Shown here: positions 5,719-28,408 of the stretch, piece by piece
Position numbering within the stretch: the stretch's first letter is position 1
Layout of the letters: the number at the start of each line of letters is the position of its first letter
Source: Gaiella sp.
GTDB lineage: Bacteria; Actinomycetota; Thermoleophilia; Gaiellales; Gaiellaceae
NCBI GenBank assembly: GCA_027493885.1
Contig: JAOSJZ010000001.1
Coordinates: 2,598,622 to 2,662,621, forward strand
Reading direction: 5' to 3'
Length of the DNA stretch: 64,000 bases
Translations under genes and position numbers: made by a program
The notes under the pieces: generated by a model
Told to the model about the DNA's origin: nothing
The model's database searches: none
The model's input: only the letters and a program-made list of their open reading frames with translations

Positions 5719-6152
5719 GCGTCATCCTCGAGGTGGTCTGCCCCCGCCTGCTCGGCCCGGCCGCGATGGTCGCGGCCGCGATCATCGTCAAGGGCTACAG
5801 CGACGTCGGGGACGGCTTCAGCGCGGGCGTCGTCGTCGCCCTCGCGGTCGCGCTCCGGTACGTCACGCTCGGCGCCGAGCGAGCCGAGCGGAGCCTTCCC
5901 GTCCTCCGTCATGCACCCGTGCTCGCCGTCGCCGGGCTCCTGCTCGTGCTCGCGATCGGCTTCTTTCCAGTCGCCTTCGGCGAGCCGCCCCTCACCCACT
6001 TTCCCCGAGCCGGCGAGCCGGTCGTCGAGATCGGCGCGCTCGAGCTGACGACCGCCGTCGCGCTCGACGTCGGCATCTTCCTGCTCGTCGCGGGCGCGCT
6101 CGTGGAGACGATTCACCAGATCGCGCGGCTGGTCGAGGAGCGCCGCGCGTGA
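5715..6152 (+). CDS. mrpB: Na+/H+ antiporter subunit MrpB
   Basis: 145 residues with four hydrophobic helices. The motif IIVKGYSDVGDGFSAGV near the N-terminus is the typical MrpB/MnhB signature. GTG start overlaps the mrpA stop by four bases, indicating translational coupling. Part of the seven-subunit complex needed for cation export and pH homeostasis. Confidence 0.9.
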   Translation: MSVILEVVCPRLLGPAAMVAAAIIVKGYSDVGDGFSAGVVVALAVALRYVTLGAERAERSLPVLRHAPVLAVAGLLLVLAIGFFPVAFGEPPLTHFPRAGEPVVEIGALELTTAVALDVGIFLLVAGALVETIHQIARLVEERRA

Positions 6153-8655: not shown

Positions 8656-8983
8656 TCGACACCGCGGTCGACGTGCTCGGGGCGGGGTTGCTCGGGCTCG
8701 GGCTCCTCCTCGCGACCGTCGGCCTCTACGGCGTCCTGCGGATGCCGGACATCTTCAACCAGCTCCACGCAGCGGGGCTCGTCACCGGCCCGTCCGTGCT
8801 CGTGATCCTCCTCGCCTCGCTCACCACGCGGAGCGCCGACATCGTGACGAGCGCGGCGCTGCTGTTCGTCTTCGTGCTCATCACCGCCCCGCTCGCGGGA
8901 CACGCGATCGCGAGGGCAGCCTGGCACCGGCCGGACGTCGACGGGAAGGAGGAGCCGGAGGGGCCGCGGCGCCGTGCCGATAG
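8652..8983 (+). CDS. mrpG: Na+/H+ antiporter subunit MrpG (stop apparently lost by one base)
   Basis: Three-helix subunit; GLYGVLRMPDIFNQLHAAG is the MrpG signature. As read, the frame has no stop and runs on into the stress-protein gene as one 403-residue polypeptide. If the GGGG at 8960-8963 were GGGGG, a TAG at 8981-8983 would end MrpG at 110 residues, the normal family length. Given similar single-base errors in mrpA, mrpD and mrpF I annotate the shorter protein; a true MrpG-UspA fusion is the alternative. GTG start overlaps mrpF. Confidence 0.75.
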
Positions 8984-11740: not shown

Positions 11741-12834
11741 GGGGCGCGCCCGCGCCCGCCTCGGGCCCTCTACCGCTCCTACCTCGAGCAGAGCGACGCT
11801 TTCGTCGGTGTTTACTGGCAGCGTTACGGCTGGGTCGCGCCCGGGATGGACGTCTCGGGGCTCGAGGACGAGTACCTGCTCGCGGGCTCGCTGCCGAAGC
11901 TCGTCTACCTCGAGGAGCCCTCCGAGCAGCGCGAGCCCGGTCTCACGGCGCTGCTGGATCGCATCTCGGCCGACGACGTGTCGTACCGTCGCTTCGCGAC
12001 CGCGCAAGAGCTCGCCGACTTGCTGGGTGACGATCGCGCCGTGCTCGTCTCCGAGCGCTTCGCGCACGCGTCGAGCCGTCGCCGGAGCCGGCGCGCGTCG
12101 ATACCCGCCCCGGTGAGCGGCTACGCGCCTCGCGCTGGAGGTCGCCCGGAACGTGAGGGACGACTTCGACAGCGGCGTGGCGGTCGCCCTGCTCGCATCC
12201 GTCCAGGACGCCGACGGCGTCGTGGCCGTGATCGCCGAGGCTGTGGGTGTCCTCGGCGATTCGAGCACACCGCTCCTGGACACGCTCACGAGTCGCCTCG
12301 CCGAGCACGAGCTCTCGTGCTCGACAACATGGAGCGGGTGCTCCGCGCCGCGCGGGCGGTGGGAGAGCTGGCCGCCGCGACGCCCGGCCTCACGGTGCTC
12401 GTCACGAGCAGGGCCCGGCCCGACCTCACCGGCGAGCACTGCATCACGGTGGAGCCGTCCCGCGCGACCGGCGTGCGTTTCGAGATGCTCGAGACGCTCC
12501 GCGAGTTCGCAAGCGAGAGGCTCGACGAGAGGGGCGGAGCCGCCGGCGCACGCGAGCGGCATCTCGCGTACTTCGCCCAGCTCGCCGACGAGGCCTACGA
12601 TGCGCCTCCGGAGGGAAGGGCGCTCGTACGCTCGCGGCTCGACGACGAGCGCGAGAACCTGTCGGCGGCGTACTCGGAGGCCAGCGGGCGACGCCGGCCG
12701 AGGCCGTCCGCCTGGCCGGTGCGCTCGGGATGTTCTTCTCGCAGCGTGGCCTGAACCGCGCCGGACGCGACGCGATCGTGAACGCGCTCGGCGGCACTGA
12801 CGGACCGGGTGATCGGCAAACGACGGAGAGTTAG
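11741..12834 (+). pseudogene. Decayed DUF4062 / NB-ARC ATPase (STAND-like) gene
   Basis: Pieces of one protein are spread over three frames. First comes the C-terminal half of a DUF4062 domain (ARPRPPRALYRSYLEQSDAF, VYWQRYGWVAPGMDVSGLED). Then an NB-ARC stretch (ALEVARNVRDDFDSGVAVAL) in another frame, LVLDNMERVLRAARAVGELA (Walker B) back in the first, and a winged-helix/TPR start (MLETLREFASERLDERG). The N-terminus of DUF4062 and the whole Walker A region are absent, so decay involves deletions and not just base-call errors. Intact relatives couple a DUF4062 sensor to an ATPase. The last part resembles the intact regulator at 33845-36565. Confidence 0.75.
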
Positions 12835-12952
12835 AGGACAGGCTGCCCCGCGCGGTGTGCACGGTTGTGACGCGCAACGCGAGCGATGGGTAACGACCTC
12901 GAGCCCGTCACGCGCAGCTCCGACTCGGCTGCGCACGAGAATCCTCGGAAGC

Positions 12953-13872
12953 GTGGCGACTAGGCCGGAGAATCTCGAACAACGCGTCGTCGATGCGGCC
13001 GAGGCGGCTCTGGTCGAGCGGCAGGTGGTGGGCGCAGTCGACGTGCTCGTTGGTCTCGGCTGGCTGGCGCCCTCCCAGGTGGCCGCCTGGCGCCAGGGAC
13101 GGATCGAGACGCTCGAGGGGGTGCTGACCGTGAGCCCGGCGAAGCTCTCGGCCGCGCGCCGCCTGTTGGAGCAGTGGGCGCACGCTCGGGGACTCTCGGC
13201 GAGCGACGCCGCGTACGTCGCGCGGACTCCCGACCGCCGGGCGCTTCGCTTCAGTGAGAGCGGCGACCCGGGCATCGAGCGCGCTTACCGAACGCACTGG
13301 CTCTCACCGGAGCTCCCCGCCGGCGCGCGGGAGCGGCTGACAGAGCGACAGAGGCGTCCGCCCGAGCTGGTCGTGATCGCTCCGCTCAACGACTGGGCGT
13401 GCACTGCGTGTGGGGGAACGGGCGACCTGTTGATCATGGACACGCCCGGCCCGCTCTGCCTCGACTGCGCCGACCTCGACCACCTCGTCTTTCTGTCCGC
13501 CGGCGATACGGCGCTCACCCGGCGCGCGAAGCGTGCGAGTCGCCTGTCGGCAGTGGTGGTGCGCTTCAGCCGCACCCGCAGGCGCTACGAGCGGCAGGGC
13601 ATCCTGGTCGAGGAGGAGGCGCTCGAGCGCGCGGAGCAGGAGTGCCTTGAGGACGAGGAGCGCGCGCCCGTCGGCGTGAACGGGAAGTCGAGCGTCGCGG
13701 ACGCGAGGACGCCGATCTGCGCGAGCGTTTCTCGGCGGCGATCGTCCGCTTGTTTCCGGGCTGTCCCACCGACTACGACCAGCTGCTGATGGCCGGGATC
13801 GAGCGCGCAGAGGCGCGGGAGCGCGTCCATGGCAAGGTCGAGCACGTACTGGAGCGCTGGCGCCGTCCCTGA
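12953..13872 (+). CDS. DUF2293 family protein (one-base frame break)
   Basis: About 306 residues when repaired. Centre has WACTACGGTGDLLIMDTPGPLCLDCADL (shown here as its Cys pairs: CTAC and CLDC), then VVVRFSRTRRRYERQGILVEE, typical of DUF2293 proteins. The frame breaks at about 13660-13675 (GCGCGCGCCC). In the next frame the expected tail RERFSAAIVRLFPGCPTDY runs to a stop at 13870-13872. GTG at 12953 is the likely start, just before the conserved N-terminus. Function unknown; the paired Cys suggest a metal site. Confidence 0.75.
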
Positions 13873-15616: not shown

Positions 15617-15662
15617 CGGGAGCGACGGGACTCGAACCCGCGACCTCCGGCGTGACAGGCCG
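15617..15662. repeat. attL: 46-base copy of the tRNA-Asp 3' end
   Basis: Identical to 28286-28331, covering the discriminator base, acceptor 3' strand, T arm, variable region and anticodon stem side, then diverging. The fragment lacks the D arm and 5' acceptor strand, so it is not a functional tRNA. This is the displaced target sequence left by site-specific integration. Confidence 0.9.
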
Positions 15663-15828
15663 ATCAAGGGCTTCCACGACCTTCCCTGGCTCGGCCCGGA
15701 AAGGCCCGATTAGCAGGAAGTTCGCTTAGACGCACGGGCGGCGAATCCACGGCCTTCCATGGGGGTTCCGGCGGGTCCCGCCCCATCCACACCCCATCGC
15801 TGTAGTGCCTTCTGAGACAACGGGTTTC
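15663..15828. other. Left end of the island (no gene)
   Basis: 166 bases between attL and the first gene's stop. Apart from the repeat at 15781-15800 no coding or structured element is evident. Confidence 0.5.
15781..15800 (+). repeat. Candidate integrase arm-binding site, left
   Basis: Twenty bases identical to 28207-28226, in the same orientation. The unit holds CCCCATC twice with CACA between, a typical look for arm-type sites of tyrosine integrases. It lies 118 bases inside the left core. Confidence 0.5.
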
Positions 15829-17937
15829 TCAGGCAAGCTGCGCCGCAGGCGCTGCCCAGTGCGACTTGATGTATTCGCTCGCCTCCTTGACGCCGAGAGG
15901 GCGGCTCGTGTTTCCGGCCCTCACGTAGAACTCTGACCGGTCGCCGTCCTCGACGAATACCGGCGACGGGTAGCGCTCGCAGGCGGCGACGGCGACCGTC
16001 TTCCCGTCGATTTCGCTAAAGGTCAACTCGACGCCTGGGTTCTTGTCCTCGCCGAGGTACGAGCCGATTGCGTTCCGGAACGTCAGCTCGAACCCGTCAC
16101 GGTTTCCCTTGGCACCGAGGCTTTCGAAGTCCTTGTCGAGTCCGAGCACCTCCCCGTCATCGGCGACGCCGATCAGGAGTGTGCCCCCCTGGCTGTTCAT
16201 GAAAGCGGCGAGCGTCTTTGCGACGACCTTGGTGAGCGCCTTGTTCACCTGGTTCTCCCGGTAATCCCAGCGAAGCGAGGACTTGTACTCGACCCCGAGG
16301 CTCTCGCCGCGGGCGATCAGGTCGTCGATCGTCGTGAGCGGCTCCGGCTCCTCGGCGATCAGGCTCTCCATGAACTCGTTGATCCCGTCTGCGATCAGCC
16401 GCCGTCGCTCGGCCAGGAAGTCCTCGAACCGGTCAACGCTCCAGAGTGACTCGTCCATCGGCACAAACTGCTCGGCAAGAGCGCCAGGGAAGCGCTCTTC
16501 GACGTCGCGGAGGTAAGCAAGCGGGTCGGAGTTCGAGATCTTCAGGTTCGCCTGCTTGGTAAGGAAGGCGAGGTTCGCGATCTGGTTGACGATCTGCTTG
16601 TGCGTGTTGTCGGTCGAGGTGTAGCCGGACTTGTAGAGCACCGACTGCGGGAAGATGTGGTGCGCCTCCAGCCCGAAGATCGCGCCGGCTCCTTTGGAGT
16701 AGAGCGGTGCGCCGTTGAACCAGTCACGGCCCCCGCGTGACCGGGCGACGATGTAGGTCATCGGGTAGAAGGTGCTCATCTGACCGGCGCGGTCGAGGTC
16801 GGCCGCCTGGACTTTGATCCGTCCGCGCTCGCGCACGAGGTTCTCGCGGAGCCGCGACGGAGGATCAGGCTCCGAGAGCGCCCCGAGGTCGGCGTTCAGC
16901 TTCGTCTCCGAGGAGCCGCTGTAGCGGCCCCACATCAGCGCTGCGTACATCCAGTGCAGGAAGTCGCGCTTCTCGCGCTGGGAACTGAAGGTGCCGCCGT
17001 TACGGGCAACATGCACGATCAGCGGGTAGAGCGGGAAGGGCGTCTTCAGGTGGCGGCTCTGGTCGATGTAGGCATCGCCGCGCAGGACGTTCACCAGGTA
17101 TTCGAGCGCCTGCTTCCCTTTCGCCCACGACTCCTGCACGGTCTCGATCGGTGTCGTGTAGAGCGAGTCGTATGTCCCCGAGCCGGTCGCGACGGTCGCG
17201 GCGATGCGGGTGTAGACATCGAGCTTGAAGTCGAAGTGATGCTGGGCAAGCTCGGCCTCGGCGGCCCTGAAGCTCTGCCGGGCCTCTGGCCACGAGGCGC
17301 AGATGTGGGCGAGCGCGAGGTCGGAGGCGCTCAGGCGCGTTCCCTTCGAATTCACGAGATTGAAGATCTCGACCGCTCGGTTGATGTCCTCCTCGGCGAT
17401 CGTGTCGATGTAGTAGGAGTAGCCGGTGATCGCGTCGAGCTTCTGGAGCTTGTCGAAATTGGCGAGGTACACCTCGCTCTCGGCGTTGTGCGCCGCGAAG
17501 AAGGCGGCGACGCCCTGCCTGAAGAAGTCGGTGACCGGGATCCACTCGGCGCGGCCGTTCATTGCCTGCTTCTTGTAGTACGCGAACTCCTCGCTCTGGA
17601 GGTTGAAGTAGAGGTTGAAGAAGAGCTTCTCGCCCTCGTAGAAGGGCGGCGCCTCGCCGGTGACGAGCGTGTAGATACTCGTCAGGCGCTGCTGTCCGTC
17701 GAGGATCAGGTTGAAGTACTTGCTGTCATCGCCGACCGGAGCGCCAGCTCTGACGAGGCCCGGATCGGGTGTCTTCCAGATCAGGAAGCTGCCGGTCGGG
17801 TAGCCGCGGTAGAGAGAGCGCATGAACTCGCGCACCTGAGTCTGGCTCCAGACGTAGCCACGTTGGAACTCGGGAAGGATCATCTGCCGCTTGTCGATCT
17901 CCGAGATCAGGTCGCGGATCGTGAGCTGTCCCTGCAC
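15829..17937 (-). CDS. DUF262 (GmrSD-type) / HNH / AlbA_2 (Schlafen-type) fusion protein
   Basis: 702 residues. Residues 1-250 are a DUF262 (ParB/Srx-like fold) domain: LPEFQRGYVW near 21 and LDGQQRLTS at 79-87, the nucleotide-binding motif of GmrS-like proteins. Residues ~400-480 hold a GmrSD HNH nuclease part (EAHHIFPQS at 424-432 and NQIANLAFLTKQANLKIS). Residues ~540-665 are an AlbA_2/divergent AAA-4 domain (GVEYKSSLRWD, AFMNSQGGTLLIGV). Related DUF262 nucleases cut modified phage DNA; adding the AlbA_2 domain, found in Schlafen-like proteins, suggests nucleic-acid binding or RNA targeting. ATG start at 17937, single gene, first of the island cargo. Anti-phage function is inferred. Confidence 0.88.
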   Translation of the reverse strand: MQGQLTIRDLISEIDKRQMILPEFQRGYVWSQTQVREFMRSLYRGYPTGSFLIWKTPDPGLVRAGAPVGDDSKYFNLILDGQQRLTSIYTLVTGEAPPFYEGEKLFFNLYFNLQSEEFAYYKKQAMNGRAEWIPVTDFFRQGVAAFFAAHNAESEVYLANFDKLQKLDAITGYSYYIDTIAEEDINRAVEIFNLVNSKGTRLSASDLALAHICASWPEARQSFRAAEAELAQHHFDFKLDVYTRIAATVATGSGTYDSLYTTPIETVQESWAKGKQALEYLVNVLRGDAYIDQSRHLKTPFPLYPLIVHVARNGGTFSSQREKRDFLHWMYAALMWGRYSGSSETKLNADLGALSEPDPPSRLRENLVRERGRIKVQAADLDRAGQMSTFYPMTYIVARSRGGRDWFNGAPLYSKGAGAIFGLEAHHIFPQSVLYKSGYTSTDNTHKQIVNQIANLAFLTKQANLKISNSDPLAYLRDVEERFPGALAEQFVPMDESLWSVDRFEDFLAERRRLIADGINEFMESLIAEEPEPLTTIDDLIARGESLGVEYKSSLRWDYRENQVNKALTKVVAKTLAAFMNSQGGTLLIGVADDGEVLGLDKDFESLGAKGNRDGFELTFRNAIGSYLGEDKNPGVELTFSEIDGKTVAVAACERYPSPVFVEDGDRSEFYVRAGNTSRPLGVKEASEYIKSHWAAPAAQLA

Positions 17938-18030: not shown

Positions 18031-18618
18031 TCATCCGTCGGGGAGAAGGATTTCGAGGACGCGCGGCTTTCGTTGGCGTGCGGCCTCCTGCTCGAGTTGC
18101 CGGCGCGTGAGCAACCCGAGGTGCAGCGCTTCCCGGGCTGCCATCGCTGCCTGGTCGGGTTGGATCCTCTCGGCGATGTCGACGAGCGTCCGCGGCGGTG
18201 CTGTGACGGGCATAGCGTCTCCCCAAACCGAGGCGACTCCCTCCTCGTCCGAACGGGTGTGGATGACGACACCTGGCGGCCGACGGAGCCCCCGGTGCCT
18301 GCGGGCGACAAGCAAGTGGACCTCGTCAGGGACGTTGTTGCTGAGGTCGAGTAGCAGGAGGGCGCTCTCGTGCGAGACGATTGCTTTGTCCATTCCGACC
18401 GCCATCCACTTCTCGCGAATGTCGTCGAACTGGGAGCGTGGGAATCCCCAAACGCGGTAGAGCCCTCGCCGCACGCGCTCGAATCGTCCCTGCCGGACGT
18501 GATGGTTCAGGAGCTGCGAGCTGACCCCGTACCCGCGCGCCTGCCGCGCGGTGAAGTAGCCGCTCTGCTGGTAGGACTCGGCCTCGAGGCCGCGCACGTT
18601 CGGGAGAGTGTCATGCAT
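18031..18618 (-). CDS. AbiEi-family (type IV antitoxin-like) protein, orphan
   Basis: 195 residues. N-terminal wHTH (GYFTARQARGYGVSSQLLNH, residues ~20-40; RRGLYRVWGFP) followed by the AbiEi-type C-terminal domain (SHESALLLLDLSNNVPDEVH; RTLVDIAERIQPDQA). AbiEi normally represses and counteracts an AbiEii nucleotidyltransferase encoded next to it; here no such gene is adjacent. The nearest nucleotidyltransferase is 7 kb away with its own XRE partner. A TATACT box six bases before the ATG suggests a leaderless transcript. Confidence 0.82.
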   Translation of the reverse strand: MHDTLPNVRGLEAESYQQSGYFTARQARGYGVSSQLLNHHVRQGRFERVRRGLYRVWGFPRSQFDDIREKWMAVGMDKAIVSHESALLLLDLSNNVPDEVHLLVARRHRGLRRPPGVVIHTRSDEEGVASVWGDAMPVTAPPRTLVDIAERIQPDQAAMAAREALHLGLLTRRQLEQEAARQRKPRVLEILLPDG

Positions 18619-19070: not shown

Positions 19071-19985
19071 ATGGCCCAACAGGCATCGCCGCTGCATGTC
19101 CGGGGATCCGGAACCGGTCACGTCCTCGACCGGAAGCTCCTGCTAGACGGCGCCGCGAGGAGTCTCTCCGCGGTTCCGAGACCGTTCTTACGCTGGGCCG
19201 GTTCGAAGCAGCGCGTCCTGCGGCAACTCGTTCCTCATCTGCCGGCCTCCTTCGATCGCTACTTCGAGCCGTTCCTCGGCGCCGGGTCACTGTTCTTCTT
19301 GCTGCGTCCGACGCGAGTTGTGCTGGCTGACGCCTGCGTCGAGCTCGTCGAGACCTACCGCGCTGTCGCGAGCGATCCCAACGCCGTATTGGATTGGCTC
19401 AGCGGCTTGAATCCGCTGGACAAGGACCTCTACTACCGGGTTCGCGCAAGACGCTCGGAGGATCCAGTGCGCCGGGCGGCCGAGTTCATCTTTCTGAACC
19501 GCGCGGGGTGGAATGGCCTCTACCGTGTCAACTCGCGCGGCGAGTTCAATGTGCCCTACGGAGCGCCGAAGACCGCCAACCTGATCGATTCGACGAATCT
19601 CCTGGAATGTTCGCGGCTGCTCGCTCAGCGTCACATGACGATTACGGCGGGTGATTTCGAGCGTGTTGTCGAGGATTGCGAGCCCGGTGACTTCGTTTTC
19701 TTTGATCCTCCCTACGTCACGAGCCACAACAACAATGGCTTCATCGATTACAACGAACGGCTCTTCTCTTGGAAGGACCAGATTCGTCTCGCGGAAGTTG
19801 TGCGGCATCTTGCGGCTAAGAATGTGAACGTGCTCGTTACGAACGCGAACCATAAGGGCGTGCTTGATCTGTATGCCGATTTCGTGACGAGCCCGATCTC
19901 ACGTGCAAGCACGCTCGCAGGAAGCAGGGCTGCCCGCCGTCCAGTCACCGAAACAGTTATCCGGACGTACGACGTCCCCTCGTGA
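19071..19985 (+). CDS. DNA adenine methylase (Dam/D12 class)
   Basis: 304 residues. FLRWAGSKQR near residue 40 is the AdoMet-binding FxGxK-like motif of D12-class N6-adenine methyltransferases, then FEPFLGAGSLFF, and the catalytic DPPY in FVFFDPPYVTSHN. ATG at 19071 is the likely start, since the upstream in-frame region is Arg/Ser-rich and unlike the family. Target sequence cannot be predicted. Followed after 10 bases by the ParB-like gene; no restriction nuclease is directly adjacent. Confidence 0.88.
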   Translation: MAQQASPLHVRGSGTGHVLDRKLLLDGAARSLSAVPRPFLRWAGSKQRVLRQLVPHLPASFDRYFEPFLGAGSLFFLLRPTRVVLADACVELVETYRAVASDPNAVLDWLSGLNPLDKDLYYRVRARRSEDPVRRAAEFIFLNRAGWNGLYRVNSRGEFNVPYGAPKTANLIDSTNLLECSRLLAQRHMTITAGDFERVVEDCEPGDFVFFDPPYVTSHNNNGFIDYNERLFSWKDQIRLAEVVRHLAAKNVNVLVTNANHKGVLDLYADFVTSPISRASTLAGSRAARRPVTETVIRTYDVPS

Positions 19986-19995
19986 GAGGCGCGGA

Positions 19996-20958
19996 GTGAA
20001 CTCGTCCGGAACGCTCGCGAGCATCGAACCAGAGTCGATCGAGCGGAATCCGCGCAACCCACGCCGCTACTTCAACGAAGAGCGGCTCGACCTTTTACGG
20101 ACATCGATCCAAGAGGTAGGCATCCTCGTTCCGCTGATCGTCTACCAGCAGAACGGAGCGGCGGCAACCGCTGCCGAGCCCAGGTATGTCCTGATGGATG
20201 GCGAGCGTCGGTGGCGGTGTGCACTCGATCTAGGGCTTGACGCCGTTCCCGCAAACGTCATTCCCGCGCCAAGTGAACTCGACAACCTGCTCCGGATGTT
20301 CAACATCCACAACGTCCGCGAGGACTGGCCACTGATCTCGGTGGCGCTCTCGCTCAACGATGTGATCGAGTTGTCCGGGGAGTCCGGCGAGAAGCGACTC
20401 GCCGAGATGACGGGCCTTACTAGGTCAACGGTGCGTCGAGCAAGACGGCTTCTGAGCATACCGCCGGCTGAGCTGCAACTCATCCAAGAAGAGGCTCACC
20501 TCGAGCGTACGCAGCAAGTGCATCGCGAGGACCTTTACCTTGAGATCGAAGCGGCTGAGTCGGTACTCCGTAGCGAACTCCCCGAGATCGCAGCAGAGTT
20601 CAGCCGCGACCAGGTCATCAGGCAGTTCGCTGCGAAGGCCGAGGTCAAGAGCCTCCGAGCCGTCACGGACTTTCGCTACGTGGGGCGGCTCGTGAAGGCC
20701 GCTGATGAGGACGTGGTGACCCGAGACGCGGTCGTTGACGCCGCGCGCACGCTGATTACCCAGCCCACGATTTCCCCACACGAGGTGTTCGATGAGGTCG
20801 CCGCGCTCGCGTACCGGCAGCACACGATCCAGCGCAAGGCAGAGTTGCTGGCAGACGACCTTCGCGAGCTGTTCTCAGTGACGACGCTCTCTCCGGGGCT
20901 GCTCGACCGTCTGCGGGAACTCCGAGACCTCATCGACAGGCTCGGGGGAGAGGAGTAG
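19996..20958 (+). CDS. ParB/Srx-fold protein (ParB-like N-terminal domain)
   Basis: 320 residues. Residues ~8-90 are a ParB N-terminal domain: NPRNPRRYFNEERLDLLRTS, QEVGILVPLIVY and the VLMDGERRWRCALDLG signature (the GERR nucleotide-binding box). Residues ~125-160 hold an HTH (RLAEMTGLTRSTVRRARRLL). The C-terminal half (LRAVTDFRYVGRLVKAADED on) matches nothing I know. No parA is present, so partitioning is unlikely. GTG at 19996, 10 bases after the methylase stop. Next gene overlaps at TAGTG. Confidence 0.85.
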   Translation: MNSSGTLASIEPESIERNPRNPRRYFNEERLDLLRTSIQEVGILVPLIVYQQNGAAATAAEPRYVLMDGERRWRCALDLGLDAVPANVIPAPSELDNLLRMFNIHNVREDWPLISVALSLNDVIELSGESGEKRLAEMTGLTRSTVRRARRLLSIPPAELQLIQEEAHLERTQQVHREDLYLEIEAAESVLRSELPEIAAEFSRDQVIRQFAAKAEVKSLRAVTDFRYVGRLVKAADEDVVTRDAVVDAARTLITQPTISPHEVFDEVAALAYRQHTIQRKAELLADDLRELFSVTTLSPGLLDRLRELRDLIDRLGGEE

Positions 20959-21668
20959 TGGCTGACCCCTTCGAGGAGCCTGCAAAGACGGAGATGCGGG
21001 CCAGTTGCGAGATCGCTATAGACCAGGCCGGGCACGAGCGTGTCGAGAAACCACTAACCGTTGATCTCCCCACGGGCTCGAGTCTTCGCGGACGCCTGAA
21101 GGGAGACCTCCAGAGCCTCGATGGTGAGGGTAGCCGCTACTGCTACTACCTTCGACCTCGCGCGGGAGACGCGCTCCCCGAGTGGCTTGCAAACCTGGCG
21201 ATGGCCGCACACGAGCTCGCTGACATCAAGGTGTATGTCGTCGTGAATGAGGCGACACCGCTCTTCGAACGATCGTGCAAGGCGGCAGGGGCTGGCTTGC
21301 TCCTTATCAACGACGACAACGAGTTTGAACGCGTCCTCGATTTCGACACGACCCTCCCAGAGATGCTTGAGGCGGACCTTAAGTCGAAGATCGACGGTGC
21401 GCGACGCGCTTTGGAAGCGAAGCTCGACCTAAATCGGAACGACCTTAGGGGTCGCTTTGAGCGAGTCGGCGAACTGACTCGCGGAATGGATCCGGCGGTA
21501 GCGGACAAGTATCAGGAGAATGTCGAGCGGCAGTACAAGATCTGGACCGAGTGGGGAGATCGAACTTCTGCGCGCCTCGATGCGGCACTTGCGGCGCGCG
21601 ATCTGCACGACCTGGAGGTGATCGCGCAGGTGATCGACGAGGGACCCGTTCTAGACGAGGACGTATGA
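20958..21668 (+). CDS. Unknown soluble protein linked to the ParB-like gene
   Basis: 236 residues, no family recognised. Residues ~60-125 have an alternating strand/helix pattern (YCYYLRPRAG, KVYVVVNEATPLFERSCK, AGLLLINDDNEF) as in small Rossmann-like or nuclease-like folds, but no catalytic motif is clear. Residues ~130-235 are charged helices, possibly coiled-coil (DLKSKIDGARRALEAKLDLN). GTG start overlaps the ParB-like stop (TAGTG) and its end overlaps the next gene (ATGA), so it is translationally coupled to both. Confidence 0.65.
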   Translation: MADPFEEPAKTEMRASCEIAIDQAGHERVEKPLTVDLPTGSSLRGRLKGDLQSLDGEGSRYCYYLRPRAGDALPEWLANLAMAAHELADIKVYVVVNEATPLFERSCKAAGAGLLLINDDNEFERVLDFDTTLPEMLEADLKSKIDGARRALEAKLDLNRNDLRGRFERVGELTRGMDPAVADKYQENVERQYKIWTEWGDRTSARLDAALAARDLHDLEVIAQVIDEGPVLDEDV

Positions 21669-22027
21669 CTTCTCGCGGCGTCTTGAACGTCCTCGCGCCG
21701 AGTGTCCGGTTTCATCGGTCGATGCTCGTGGGCGGCACTATCGGGCTTTCGGTCGGCACGTCACGTGTTGCGACCGATCCCGGCGAGCTGGGGAGCTGGC
21801 TTCTCCTGGCGGGGTGCGGCGTATTGATCGTTGTGGCTGACCTTTCGCGCGACGTCGAAGAGGACGCCCGAGCGCTTGCTGCGTCCTCTGGGGTATCGGT
21901 CCCGGAGGCGCGGCACGACGTCTATGCGGCAGGACATTCGGTGCCGATGTCGCTGGCTTTCGCCGCCGCAATCGCCCTCACGATTGCCGCTTTCGTTGTA
22001 TACGCCACCACCTCCATAGCCAAGTGA
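21665..22027 (+). CDS. Small membrane protein of the ParB-like cluster
   Basis: 120 residues with three hydrophobic segments (about 19-32, 41-57 and 95-115), a basic N-terminus and a charged middle (LSRDVEEDARALAASSG). No family recognised. ATG overlaps the previous stop by four bases. As the last gene of the methylase/ParB-like/unknown cluster it could be a membrane anchor or effector (inference). The 190 bases after it hold no gene. Confidence 0.65.
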   Translation: MTSRGVLNVLAPSVRFHRSMLVGGTIGLSVGTSRVATDPGELGSWLLLAGCGVLIVVADLSRDVEEDARALAASSGVSVPEARHDVYAAGHSVPMSLAFAAAIALTIAAFVVYATTSIAK

Positions 22028-22219: not shown

Positions 22220-22708
22220 TTGGACACGCTCGTTCCTCTCACGTCCAATACAGACAATCTGAAGCTCATGACCGCTCGTATCGCCCCAGCTCCCGAAGCG
22301 ACTTCCCCCGAAGTCCGCCAGCGGATGCAAGTACAGCGTCGTCGCGACACGTCCTGCGAGATGGAAATCAGATCACTGCTTCACGCGGCGGGCCTGCGCT
22401 ACCGCGTCGATGCGCGCCCCCTTTCGGAGTGGCGGCGCCGCGCGGACCTCGTCTTCCCGCGTTCTCACACGGCGGTCTTCGTCGATGGTTGCTTCTGGCA
22501 CGGGTGTCCCGATCACCGCACCCCGCCGAAGGCGAACGCGTCGTGGTGGCGGGCGAAGATTGCACGCAATCGTGAGCGCGATGCCGAGACTGACGAGCAC
22601 CTCCGCGCAGCAGGGTGGACAGTCATCCGGGTCTGGGAACACGAGGATCCGGCGGAAGCCGCTGCCCGCATCGCGGAAGTGGTGACGCAGCGGCGCCACG
22701 ACGGATGA
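22220..22708 (+). CDS. vsr: Very short patch repair endonuclease
   Basis: About 146-162 residues. TSCEMEIRSLLHAAGLRYRV, ADLVFPRSHTAVFVDGCFWHGCPDH and WWRAKIARNRERDAETD are the Vsr signatures; the ADLVF Asp and FWHGCPDH His residues are catalytic/zinc sites. Vsr nicks next to T:G mismatches made by deamination of 5-methylcytosine, so it accompanies C5-methylases such as the one at 24062-25278. Start: TTG 22220 has GAGAGGA upstream; ATG 22268 is an alternative. Overlaps the next gene (ATGA). Confidence 0.9.
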   Translation: MDTLVPLTSNTDNLKLMTARIAPAPEATSPEVRQRMQVQRRRDTSCEMEIRSLLHAAGLRYRVDARPLSEWRRRADLVFPRSHTAVFVDGCFWHGCPDHRTPPKANASWWRAKIARNRERDAETDEHLRAAGWTVIRVWEHEDPAEAAARIAEVVTQRRHDG

Positions 22709-23178
22709 CGGAGCGAGCCAGTGCAAACCTCGGTGAAGAGGCCGAGCGGTTCGTCGTCGAGCACGTACGGTGCCCGAGCTGCGGGAGCTCATTGCAGCAG
22801 CTTCCGCCCGGTTATCCGCTTTTCGACCTTCAGTGCTCGCGGTGTCTGTTCCGGGCGCAAGTGAAGCGTGTGCAGGAGAAGCCGCGCAGCCGACTCCGAG
22901 GCGGGAGCTGGAGCGTGGTCAGCACGTACCTGCGCACCGGGCAGCTCTTGCCGCCGATGTTCGTCTGCTTCGACTGGCCGCGGTCGCGGACCGAGCCGGG
23001 TTCTGTCTACTTCTTCCCGCTCGTTCCGGCGAAGAACGTGGCCAAGCGCGTGCTGAGCGACCAGCACAAGACTGATGCCGGGCGTGCGATGGCCGAGTAC
23101 CGCGACATGTTGTCACTGCCATATCAGGTCGTCGTCGGGGGTGACGTCGCGAACACTGCCGTCAAACGGCTTCGTTGA
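22705..23178 (+). CDS. DpnI-like PD-(D/E)XK nuclease, catalytic domain only
   Basis: 157 residues. A zinc-ribbon pair (CPSC near 25, CSRC near 45) encloses LFDLQC...FRAQVKR: the DpnI-type arrangement of catalytic Asp followed by (E/Q)xK, with Gln instead of Glu. SYLRTGQL-like and VYFFPLVPAKNVAKRVL blocks fit the DpnI catalytic domain. DpnI itself (about 254 residues) has a C-terminal winged helix that reads methylated DNA; this protein ends before it. Coupled to vsr by ATGA. Its 3' end overlaps the convergent XamI-like gene by 17 bases. Assignment by motif; activity not certain. Confidence 0.65.
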   Translation: MTERASANLGEEAERFVVEHVRCPSCGSSLQQLPPGYPLFDLQCSRCLFRAQVKRVQEKPRSRLRGGSWSVVSTYLRTGQLLPPMFVCFDWPRSRTEPGSVYFFPLVPAKNVAKRVLSDQHKTDAGRAMAEYRDMLSLPYQVVVGGDVANTAVKRLR

Positions 23179-24058
23179 CGAAGTGCACGAGCGCGCTGAG
23201 ATCGTGCTCCCAGAAGAGCGCGACGCTTTGGTCGTCCTGCCCGGCGACGAGACATGAAAGGTCGTAGACGCCCGCGAGGACGGCCGCCGTAACGACCTGT
23301 GTGCCGAACGTTCCGCGCCAACGCTCTGCTTTGCCCCCAACTTCGCGGTTGAGACGCTTCCACGAGTTCTTCGGGCCGTTCGAGACCTTGCACTCGATCG
23401 CGAGGAGGCGGCCGTCGCGCAGGCGCACGGGCACGTCGCACTTCGCTCCCGCAACCTTCCGTTCGCGGGAGAAAGAACCCCGTGCGAGCGTGTCGAGGAC
23501 GTTGATCGCCGCACGTCCCTCATCGAAGTCGAACGCTGACGCCGTCAAGATGGCTGCGACCGCTGCTTCCTGCCGAACCGAGACCTGTCCGCGGCGTCGG
23601 GTCCCCGTCATGACCGAGGCGTACATCGCGGTTGTCGCGAGGAGCGACGCGTCCCGCTCGATCTGGGTCGGGCTTCGATCGAGCTCGAGCCACGGGAATC
23701 GGATCGGGTCGAAAAGAGGCTGCACCGCTTCGGCCGTGTCGTCGGCTATGTCGGAGGTGACCCGTCGGAACTTCCGTCCGACCATCGTCCAGAGGTCCTC
23801 CTCCGAGATCGGGGGCGCGCAGCAGTAACGGAGGACCTGCCAGAGCAGCGGGTCGGCCAACAGAGCCTTGCCGGTCACCGACCTAAGGTCGTCCGTGAGC
23901 TCGAAGGCAGCACGAATCCGAGGCTCGAGCTCGGCGTAGACCGCGGCGTAAGCCTTCGGCCCTTCGTCGCGGCGTTGCTCCGTGAAGAGAGCCTCTGCTT
24001 GGACGCGATGTGCCTGTAGCTCCTCGCGAGTCCACCGCCGCGGCTGCGCGAACGCCAC
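23162..24058 (-). CDS. XamI-family type II restriction endonuclease
   Basis: 298 residues. The C-terminal block CDVPVRLRDGRLLAIECKVS holds the PD-(D/E)XK core (Asp, then ECK), followed by KRLNREVGGKAERW and ALFWEHDLSAL, as in XamI-like enzymes. XamI itself recognises GTCGAC; whether this homologue does is inference. GTG start lies three bases after the stop of the C5-methylase on the same strand, so the pair forms one methylase-first operon, the order that protects host DNA. Confidence 0.85.
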   Translation of the reverse strand: MAFAQPRRWTREELQAHRVQAEALFTEQRRDEGPKAYAAVYAELEPRIRAAFELTDDLRSVTGKALLADPLLWQVLRYCCAPPISEEDLWTMVGRKFRRVTSDIADDTAEAVQPLFDPIRFPWLELDRSPTQIERDASLLATTAMYASVMTGTRRRGQVSVRQEAAVAAILTASAFDFDEGRAAINVLDTLARGSFSRERKVAGAKCDVPVRLRDGRLLAIECKVSNGPKNSWKRLNREVGGKAERWRGTFGTQVVTAAVLAGVYDLSCLVAGQDDQSVALFWEHDLSALVHFVNEAV

Positions 24059-24061
24059 GAC

Positions 24062-25278
24062 TCAGACGGAGGCGCGGACGCGCACGCGGTGTTCGCCGTT
24101 GACGCGATGCTCCGAGACCGTGTAGCGCACGCGCCGATGGAATTCCGCAGGCCAGGGAGGCGAGGAGGGCGGCTGATCGGCGGGTCCGGTCGCGAGAGCC
24201 GTCAGCAACGCCCTACCCATCGCTTCCGCAAGGTTCGTCTGCACGGCGTTGCCGATCTGCCGGAACCGCGACGCGAGGGTTCCTGCGAACCGCCACCCCT
24301 GAGGGAATCCCTGCAACGCGGCACACTCGCGCCAGGTGAGACGTCGGAGGCTGCCATCGGACTCCTTGATCCAATCGGGAGTGCTCGCGGCGCGAATAGT
24401 CCGCGACGGGAGCGAAAGGTCGGCGACGAAGCAGTCCTGTCGGTAGCCCCAGTGTCCACCTGGTCGGTTCGATTCGACGCGGCCCTGAGTGCGAAGGCCG
24501 CTGCCCGGCTCAAGCGCTGCGAGTTGCCGTGCGCGCTCCCCCTTCGGTCTCACGACGTTCTCGGGCTCGGGTGCGGGGAGCGTCCCGAGCAACGTGCCGA
24601 GCGACACCCAGGGCACACGGCTCTCGAGAAGTGTGATCTCGCCCGTGGATTGGTGGGTCGGCTCCGGGAAGGTCGGGAGTTCGTGGTCCGACGAGGCGAC
24701 GAGGAAGAGTCGGACGCGCCGCTGCGCAGCGCCGTAGTCGGCGGCATTGAGTAACGCCACGGCACTCGCGTAACCGATGTTCTGCAGCTCACGCTGGATC
24801 AGCTGTAGGGCCTCGCCGGGTTTCCCATTCGGCCCGACTGCGGTGACAAGGCCGCGAACGTTCTCCATGAGGACGAAGTGGGGGCGGAGGTCGGCGACGA
24901 GGCGGATGAAGTGGTCGACGAGCTGGCCGCGCGGGTCGGAGAACCCCTGCTGCAGTCCCGCGGACGACCACGGTTGACATGGCGGCCCCCCGGCGACGAG
25001 GGCGGGGCGCCAAGTCGACGGCGCATCGACCGGACGTAGGTGTTCGGGGCCAAGATCAGCGATGTCAGCGTGGACGATTGCAGTGCGGGCGAGGAATGTC
25101 CGGTCGATCCCCGCCCTCACCGGCTGCCGCGCGTCGCGGCTCTCGGAGAGCGTGGCAATGCAGTCGGCGTCGAAGTCCGTTGCGACGACCGTCTCCCAGC
25201 CCGCGCGTTCAAGCCCGACGTCCAGACCCCCGCTCCGGAAAACAGGGACACAACAGTTGCCGGTCGGACGGCGGCCAT
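24062..25278 (-). CDS. DNA (cytosine-5) methyltransferase (one-base frame break at motif I)
   Basis: 405 residues when repaired. Motif IV GGPPCQPWS carries the catalytic Cys; motif VI MENVRG, motif VIII AAQRRVRLFLV and motif X QIGNAVQTNLAEAMG are clear. The true ATG is at 25278 (MAAVRPATVVSLFSGAG = motif I); the frame then breaks in a five-C run at 25227-25231 (plus strand), and one more base restores SLFSGAGGLDVGLERAGW. Partner of the XamI-like nuclease downstream; its product, 5-methylcytosine, explains the nearby vsr. If the break were real the host would lack protection against its own nuclease, which argues for a sequence error. Confidence 0.9.
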
Positions 25279-25327
25279 GAGTCGAGGCTAGCGAGGGGCT
25301 CGGCTGACGCACTCCAAGCGGGTCAGG

Positions 25328-25816
25328 CTAGAGCGGGCTTGTCCGGGCAAGAATCGCGAGCACCGTGGACGGCCACCATTGCCGTCCGCCTTGGCCGGTG
25401 GGGATGCCGTCGCGGTTGAGCTGCTCAGCGATGTCGGCGAGGCTTCGTCCTTGCGCTCGTTCGTCGCGGATACGCGCGACGACGTCGGCGGGGAGGGTCG
25501 ACTTGCGGCCGGAGCGCGATTGTCGGCGTCGTGACGCGCGCGGCTCCTGGGTGCGTTCGAAGAGGTAGCGGTCGAACTCGGCGGCTGGGATCAGGCGCCC
25601 GCCCCATTCGGTCTTGATGGTCGCGACCATCGGGATGACGCGGCGGTCGAGGGTGGCGAGGCTGATGCCGAGCGCCTTCGCCGCTTGCTCGCGCGAGTAC
25701 ACGAGACGCTCGACCGGGCCGTCAGGCTCGGTGTCGTTCAGTATCGACACGCGCACGGGCTTCGGAGCGTGCCGCTGCTCCTTCTCGCGTCTGCGTCGCT
25801 GCCGGTGCTTCGCCAC
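25328..25816 (-). CDS. DNA-binding protein with recombinase-type HTH
   Basis: 162 residues. A basic N-terminus is followed by an excisionase/MerR-like HTH (YSREQAAKALGISLATLDRR, residues ~40-60). The C-terminal part (GRKSTLPADVVARIRDERAQ, then SLADIAEQLNRDGIPTGQGG) matches the HTH linker seen in serine-recombinase C-termini. No catalytic recombinase domain is present. Possibly an accessory regulator of the island. GTG start; an inverted repeat lies 47-62 bases upstream. Confidence 0.65.
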   Translation of the reverse strand: MAKHRQRRRREKEQRHAPKPVRVSILNDTEPDGPVERLVYSREQAAKALGISLATLDRRVIPMVATIKTEWGGRLIPAAEFDRYLFERTQEPRASRRRQSRSGRKSTLPADVVARIRDERAQGRSLADIAEQLNRDGIPTGQGGRQWWPSTVLAILARTSPL

Positions 25817-27158: not shown

Positions 27159-28359
<1,201 letters not shown>

Positions 28360-28408
28360 AGCGAGGCGAGATTGTAGCGGCGGCCGGGGGCGCGGGCAGA
28401 CTTGCGAG

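Follow-up and report, generated by a model that had tools for sequence, protein, structure and literature searches.

We analysed a stretch of 64,000 nucleotides from Gaiella sp. (GenBank assembly GCA_027493885.1, contig JAOSJZ010000001.1, positions 2,598,622 to 2,662,621 of the forward strand), hereafter the window, and in particular a module of four genes at positions 19071 to 22027 on the + strand, which encode an adenine DNA methyltransferase (gene 1), a ParB-family protein (gene 2), a protein of 236 amino acids (gene 3) and a small membrane protein (gene 4). Coordinates given without a locus name are those of the whole stretch. All four open reading frames (ORFs) were confirmed on this strand, with a 10-base gap at the first junction followed by overlaps of 1 base and 4 bases, in agreement with the original prediction of a packed set with one such gap and two overlaps; its description of the set as a modifier, a DNA binder, an unassigned protein and a membrane part was also right as anatomy.

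Proteins encoded by the module

Gene 1 matched the D12 methylase family PF02086 (1.7e-44), TIGR00571 (215.9 bits for a cut-off of 114.85) and the PADLOC model MTase_II (1.2e-80), and the PF02086 and TIGR00571 matches above cut-off bear out its earlier assignment as a D12 adenine methylase. Its catalytic motifs are intact (FLGAG and DPPY), as are DPPY and FxGxG in the counterpart from Agrococcus lahaulensis (locus L002, described below), to which it is 48.5% identical (51% over 280 amino acids).

Gene 2 was assigned the ParB/Noc fold, with matches to ParB_N (PF02195, 3.3e-17) and TIGR00180 (69.9 bits, cut-off 58.45), a weak match to HTH_ParB and only weak matches in PADLOC (best 8.9e-5, MTase_II); a domain scan found in it neither GmrSD_N nor the HNH domain of GmrSD. 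No ParA was found among the island genes scanned or seen in the Agrococcus insert, and the earlier description of a ParB-family protein with a helix-turn-helix (HTH) and no ParA was thus upheld. Residues were counted in the best 120 of 450 relatives, using alignment positions named after Caulobacter ParB. Two of the hydrolysis positions are replaced throughout, the Q58 position being N in 119/119 sequences (N21 in the window) and the E135 position being H in 120/120 (H105), and the third hydrolysis residue, at the E102 position, is kept in 120/120. The positions needed to bind cytidine triphosphate (CTP), namely R60, S74, G79, R103 and R104 (roles from PMC8367383), are retained in between 117 and 120 of the 119 or 120 sequences counted. 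At the N136 position, N is present in only 96 of the 120; the R139 position was aligned through a one-residue gap, and V45 of ParB is invariant and distinct from the Q58-equivalent position. The ParA-binding motif is present in none of the 120. In Caulobacter, the ParB variants Q58A and E135A were reported to bind CTP, to be defective in hydrolysis and to close prematurely (PMC8367383). The clamp architecture of gene 2 is itself predicted from modelling, and we infer that the protein would bind CTP without ready hydrolysis and would thus stay closed on DNA once loaded. The suggestion in the original prediction that its fold might cleave nucleotides is weakened by the replacement of both positions throughout these relatives.

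Neither gene 3 nor gene 4 reached a curated cut-off in Pfam or NCBIfam, partition and housekeeping families included, so that the refuting condition of the original prediction that concerns such families does not apply. Gene 3 gave a weak match to RecC_C (17.0 bits for a cut-off of 22.6, residues 23-156) and another to the PADLOC model AbiEii (14.5 bits, E-value 0.0063, residues 110-157). Structure comparison of its predicted model (residues 9-128) returned 2okf, 2inb, 1y88 and the repair endonuclease 2vld, and the model matches the alpha-beta-beta-beta-alpha-beta core of solved PD-(D/E)XK members. Foldseek alone gave no match below 1e-3, and the gene 3 profile gave nothing usable against PDB sequences. 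On the basis of the first comparison, gene 3 is a predicted PD-(D/E)XK fold followed by long helices; its earlier status as unassigned stands for curated families and gives way to a nuclease fold in structure prediction. We assigned the catalytic positions by our own mapping of the predicted model onto 64 sequences. The D of motif II is kept in 61 of 63 sequences, and the catalytic E-x-K is replaced by [Y/F/H]-x-R, with E kept in 0/64 and K in 0/64. Among relatives down to 36% identity, D22 is conserved in 62/62, D50 in 61/63, Q52 in 62/63, Y63 in 63/63 and R66 in 64/64 sequences. The identity to the Agrococcus counterpart is 37.3%.

By hydropathy, gene 4 of the window has two segments (residues 42-60 and 95-113) with no third above threshold, and the Agrococcus copy has about three, so that the membrane protein of the original prediction stands and its three helices do not. 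The homologue at the same position in L002 is 34.9-36% identical. Few relatives were found, and gene 4 therefore evolves fast or is variable. No gene 4 match was obtained in PADLOC; across PADLOC-DB 2.0.0 the models for specific components of known anti-phage systems were unmatched, and gene 1 matched methylase models.

Related loci and distribution

When genome contigs were scanned with the ParB alignment, 28 stretches matched and two loci were obtained, one of them in A. lahaulensis, where all four genes occur in the same order with a 4-base overlap at each junction (L002, 9006-11984). Compared with the corresponding locus of a close relative (genome G1512, locus L015), positions 8678 to 12314 of L002 fall between sites that lie at 5871 and 5902 in L015, i.e. 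about 3.6 kilobases (kb) against 30 bases, with flanks aligning at 95.5% and 88.9% identity. Because the flanking sites fall 30 bases apart in the relative, the module in Agrococcus is a self-contained, clean insert of 3.6 kb, and this is the strongest evidence for the four genes as one unit. Its guanine plus cytosine (GC) content is 60.2%, lower than the 74.0% and 72.5% of its two flanks. The copy lies on a contig of 659 kb between UvrA-like and transporter-like genes and is therefore probably chromosomal. Gene 2 is the most conserved of the four proteins between the two loci (64.8% identity, DNA-binding part included).

Database searches retrieved 65 proteins for gene 3, its own included, and 450 for gene 2, of which the best 120 were listed; the gene 2 search scored only the 7999 candidates sharing most words. 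The window's own row was dropped from each list, as were rows lacking a length (two and one). Of the 62 longest-contig sizes left for the gene 3 family, 35 equalled one of the 118 left for the best 120 ParB matches, and controls shifted by 1 to 20 bases either way gave 0-3 matches; the remaining 27 of 62 are no evidence of absence, the comparison covering the best 120 of 450 ParB matches. The shared gene order in Agrococcus and the 35 of 62 size matches are more than chance. The four genes thus co-occur elsewhere, so that the other refuting condition of the original prediction, a lack of co-occurrence, does not apply either; genes 2 and 3 are linked by the size matches as well.

Three further loci (L003, L008 and L019) carry ParB proteins 30-35% identical to that of the window, and all five loci have N at the Q58 position and H at the E135 position. 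L008, in which a stretch of 271 amino acids of the third gene was examined, contains an integrase adjoining a D12 methylase, then ParB and the third gene. In L019, a D12 methylase that shares 50% identity with the L008 one is followed by ParB, a protein of 306 amino acids, a repressor-like gene and an integrase, the last 0.85 kb past the third gene. Both loci belong to the window's class. In L003 (3095-7068), a type II restriction endonuclease (DUF6996/6997/7226, PADLOC 3.1e-107), an N6_N4 methylase, ParB and a PRTase-CE protein matching the PADLOC model PRTase_III-A (1.7e-27) stand in one row. In all five loci ParB comes directly after a methylase gene, and this arrangement is the constant one; the third partner varies, and the methylases are of at least three kinds.

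The third genes of L008 and L019 gave nothing usable against PDB sequences. A look by eye at the third gene of L019 picked out E-x-I-D and then A-K-N, and the nuclease candidate this suggested was dropped, being supported by no library. L008 also has, some 1 kb beyond its third gene (12465-13388), a protein of 307 amino acids with hydrophobic stretches and a weak 8xMP match (E-value 0.035), which may be a counterpart of gene 4. Near-palindromes numbered 13 in the window and 13, 16 and 18 in the other three of four loci compared, for shuffled means of 10.7, 8.85, 8.2 and 10.9; perfect palindromes occurred only in L008 (2) and L019 (1), none with 8-base arms was present in the window or the L002 stretch, and no upstream word of 10 bases or more was shared between the four loci. 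We claim no parS-like site.

Carriers were counted in overlapping genome samples, with scoring limited to the top few candidates of each genome and with seeding loci included. Gene 3 was present in 1/396 genomes, and ParB in 1/396, 1/398, 2/379 and 2/376 at E-value limits of 1e-60, 1e-50, 1e-50 and 1e-40 respectively. Pattern searches with gene 3 matched 50 stretches of viral contigs and 25 of genome contigs, of which 0 were confirmed in either case. For ParB, no relative was found in viral contigs, and the 328 and 20 records obtained from plasmids and phages all had less than 60% identity, none covering 80%.

The host island

The module lies in an island bordered by a copy of the tRNA-Asp end and a tRNA-Asp gene (Table 1), ARAGORN additionally predicting a tRNA at 15617-15686. 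Stretches from two same-genus genomes, which extend leftwards from the tRNA for 18.3 kb (L036) and 5.9 kb (L037), carry an intact tRNA-Asp near the orthologous flanking gene and contain none of the island genes, and the ParB of the module is present in 0/6 same-genus genomes. The GC content of the module genes is 61.8%, against 72.6% and 70.7% in the flanks. The tRNA-Asp gene, the integrase, the tRNA-end copy and the restriction genes agree with the earlier reading of a tRNA-integrated island of modification genes. In L036 (15476-18386) a second copy of the tRNA-Asp end was seen about 2.9 kb from the intact tRNA; because of this further copy, another insert probably sits there, which would make the tRNA a repeatedly used insertion site.

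Table 1. Coordinates of the module genes and of neighbouring features of the island.
Feature	Coordinates	Strand	Remarks
Gene 1, D12/Dam-family N6-adenine DNA methyltransferase, 304 amino acids	19071..19985	+	PF02086, TIGR00571, PADLOC MTase_II
Gene 2, orphan ParB, 320 amino acids, GTG start	19996..20958	+	CTPase-fold N domain, HTH, helical C-terminal part
Gene 3, 236 amino acids, GTG start	20958..21668	+	residues ~8-128 predicted PD-(D/E)XK fold; 135-213 two long helices
Gene 4, small membrane protein, 120 amino acids	21665..22027	+	two clear hydrophobic segments
attL-like tRNA-Asp end copy, island left edge	15617..15662		matches the intact tRNA-Asp locus of same-genus L036 at 46/46 bases
Vsr mismatch endonuclease, neighbour outside the module	22220..22708	+	TIGR00632, 116.1 bits; starts 193 bases past gene 4
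DpnI-like gene, after Vsr	22705-23178	+	24.5 bits for a cut-off of 26.7; zinc-ribbon look
Tyrosine integrase of the island	27159..28340	+	PF00589, 1.8e-23
tRNA-Asp gene, island right edge	28284..28360	-	

The earlier statement that no nuclease adjoins the methylase holds only loosely, given the Vsr and DpnI-like genes downstream and the predicted nuclease fold of gene 3; in the Agrococcus insert, neither a Vsr nor a DpnI-like gene was noticed among the ORFs. The DpnI-like gene lies 3 kb from a Dam-family methylase, and since the making of GmATC would conflict with the cutting of methylated GATC, one label of the pair is probably off. On the - strand at 23162-25312, a XamI-type restriction endonuclease adjoins a C5-cytosine methylase, with the Vsr gene on the opposite strand, and the three probably make up an ordinary type II system within the same island. 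Other genes on the - strand encode a GmrSD-family protein of 702 amino acids (15829-17937) with GmrSD_N and GmrSD_C and a C-terminal Schlafen AlbA_2 domain, an AbiEi-type antitoxin (18031-18618), and a protein (25328-25816) that carries a serine-recombinase-type domain (PF07508) together with an HTH-like stretch and, with 162 amino acids, is smaller than expected of a complete recombinase. No clear AbiEii partner was found among the genes scanned, the sole AbiEii match among them being the weak one of gene 3.

Proposed function and relation to known systems

Gene order, one clean insert, the methylase and ParB family assignments and the residue patterns are observations; from them we infer an anti-phage role, and we hold the chances to be evenly balanced that the four genes form an undescribed restriction-modification-like defence with a ParB clamp at its centre. 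In this scheme host DNA would carry the mark of the methylase and count as self, and the ParB clamp would load onto unmarked DNA, methylation blocking or redirecting that loading. Binding CTP without ready hydrolysis, the clamp would stay closed and persist on the DNA it had loaded. Gene 3, with its E-x-K lost, would serve as a DNA-binding partner or as an atypical nuclease recruited by the clamp, gene 4 would anchor the complex to the membrane or damage the membrane, and the two would act on the trapped DNA or on the cell. The original prediction had likened the layout to abortive defence; with ParB directly following a methylase in five loci, one of them preceded by a type II endonuclease, the evidence favours a restriction-like over an abortive system. 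A wider form of the proposal is more tentative, and we lean against it: a new CTP-clamp restriction class, in which a non-hydrolysing ParB would lock onto unmethylated foreign DNA, slide as a one-way sensor and recruit a pseudo-nuclease and a membrane effector, with methylases and effectors interchangeable.

Several observations weigh against the defence reading. Similarity to gene 3 is weak in the third gene of L008 (hhalign E-value 3.6e-4, probability 37%) and absent in that of L019. Of 23 plasmid records with a match to the L019 methylase, six loci were viewed; none has an annotated ParB, and, judging from these annotations, a methylase of the L019 type can do without one. In 3 of the six, the annotation places a restriction endonuclease beside this methylase or one gene from it. 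In gene 3, long-helix proteins match the other half of the model at similar Z scores (9.6 and 9.4), so that for this model Z alone is no proof of a PD-(D/E)XK fold, and the absence of E-x-K in 64/64 sequences makes cleavage doubtful, so that the module may have no nuclease. The search for co-occurrence with gene 4 returned 3 matches, its own included; gene 4 was not identified in L003, L008 or L019, and its membership of the module stands on two loci. The module is also rare (ParB in 2/379 sampled genomes of the class and 1/398 of the Agrococcus family, seeding loci counted in both), and searches of phage, plasmid and viral-contig collections gave no relative of gene 3. Finally, the Caulobacter variants Q58A and E135A were also reported to be impaired in trapping closed parS DNA (PMC8367383), and by this analogy the loss of hydrolysis residues need not yield a better clamp.

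The main rival is that ParB regulates a selfish methylase operon, as a KorB-like CTP-dependent repressor that times a mobile methylase operon, with genes 3 and 4 as accessories of a self-maintaining element. We consider it doubtful: operator-bound regulators usually drift along with their operators, whereas this ParB has changed least among the four proteins, its DNA-binding part included. The four loci compared also share no upstream word of 10 bases or more, and 8-base arms forming a perfect palindrome are absent from the window stretch and from that of L002. Partition, in which ParB would stabilise the island and the methylase would be a passenger, draws on the ParB/Noc fold and the island setting, and island stability was the alternative given in the original prediction. 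The lack of a ParA among the island genes scanned and those seen in the Agrococcus insert, together with the missing ParA-binding motif and the two replaced hydrolysis residues in the listed relatives, led us to reject a partition or centromere function, the probable chromosomal location of the Agrococcus copy also speaks against it, and we hold it to be very improbable.

Two rivals turn on gene 3. If it were a former endonuclease that had lost its active site and left an orphan methylase behind, the kept D of motif II, the lost E-x-K and the endonuclease linkage in L003 would all fit. Across relatives down to 36% identity, however, R66, Y63 and Q52 are strongly conserved, which in the alignment points to selection for a changed function and not to decay; decay of gene 3 was rejected on this ground, and such a remnant is hardly credible. 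If instead D22, D50, Q52 and R66 formed an atypical active site on the predicted PD-(D/E)XK scaffold, the module would be an unusual type II system with ParB as its specificity subunit. The near-complete conservation of these four residues would suit this, and restriction families with altered catalytic residues exist; set against it is the lack of an acid at the E position and of a lysine at the K position in 64 sequences, and we judge it improbable.

The established roles of ParB clamps lie in the segregation of chromosomes and plasmids and, in some cases, in gene regulation. If the defence reading is true, a methylase-linked ParB clade with two hydrolysis residues replaced, and with a restriction endonuclease in one of its loci, would bring a CTP switch into the discrimination of self from non-self DNA. 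In the wider form of the proposal, a chromosome-segregation machine would have been turned to surveillance in bacterial immunity. With a size of 3 kb, and self-contained in Agrococcus, the module lends itself to direct tests.

A literature search of sources other than preprints and most subscription journals returned, in the text accessible there, fusions and ParB/Srx members of other systems and no such operon. A 2025 survey of the ParB CTPase fold covers orphan ParBs and methylase fusions, the latter frequent in phages, and its accessible text describes no methylase-ParB-nuclease operon (PMC12704722). The type IV restriction system GmrSD resembles the module in using a ParB/Srx superfamily protein in restriction (PMC5512222); unlike gene 2, which matches ParB_N, GmrSD has an HNH domain, and the GmrSD-family gene of the window is a separate one that matches GmrSD_N. 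ParB-like genes have also been noted with restriction genes in two other groups. The restriction-modification genes tabulated in a survey of Halobacteria include a family of ParB-like nucleases with 4 genes, for 75% of which GATC is predicted (PMC6471742), and on a Thermus plasmid taqIIRM comes after parA and parB (PMC5587805), there an ordinary parAB pair. In fusions of ParB with a methylase, such as BCE_0392, for which nicking has been reported (PMC5512222, PMC3459991), and the phage fusions with an N6_N4 methylase, a ParB fold and an adenine methylase likewise act together; the module differs in its separate proteins, its two further genes and its setting in an integrated island or insert, BCE_0392 lying in a prophage region. 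From the ParB, Noc and KorB clamps it differs in having no ParA seen, no ParA-binding motif and the N and H replacements in the listed relatives. From type II restriction-modification with a D12 methylase it is set apart by a 320-residue ParB between the methylase and gene 3, the lost E-x-K and the membrane protein, and it shares with such systems a linked methylase with intact motifs, a partner with a predicted endonuclease fold, mobility and, in L003, a ParB relative beside a restriction endonuclease.

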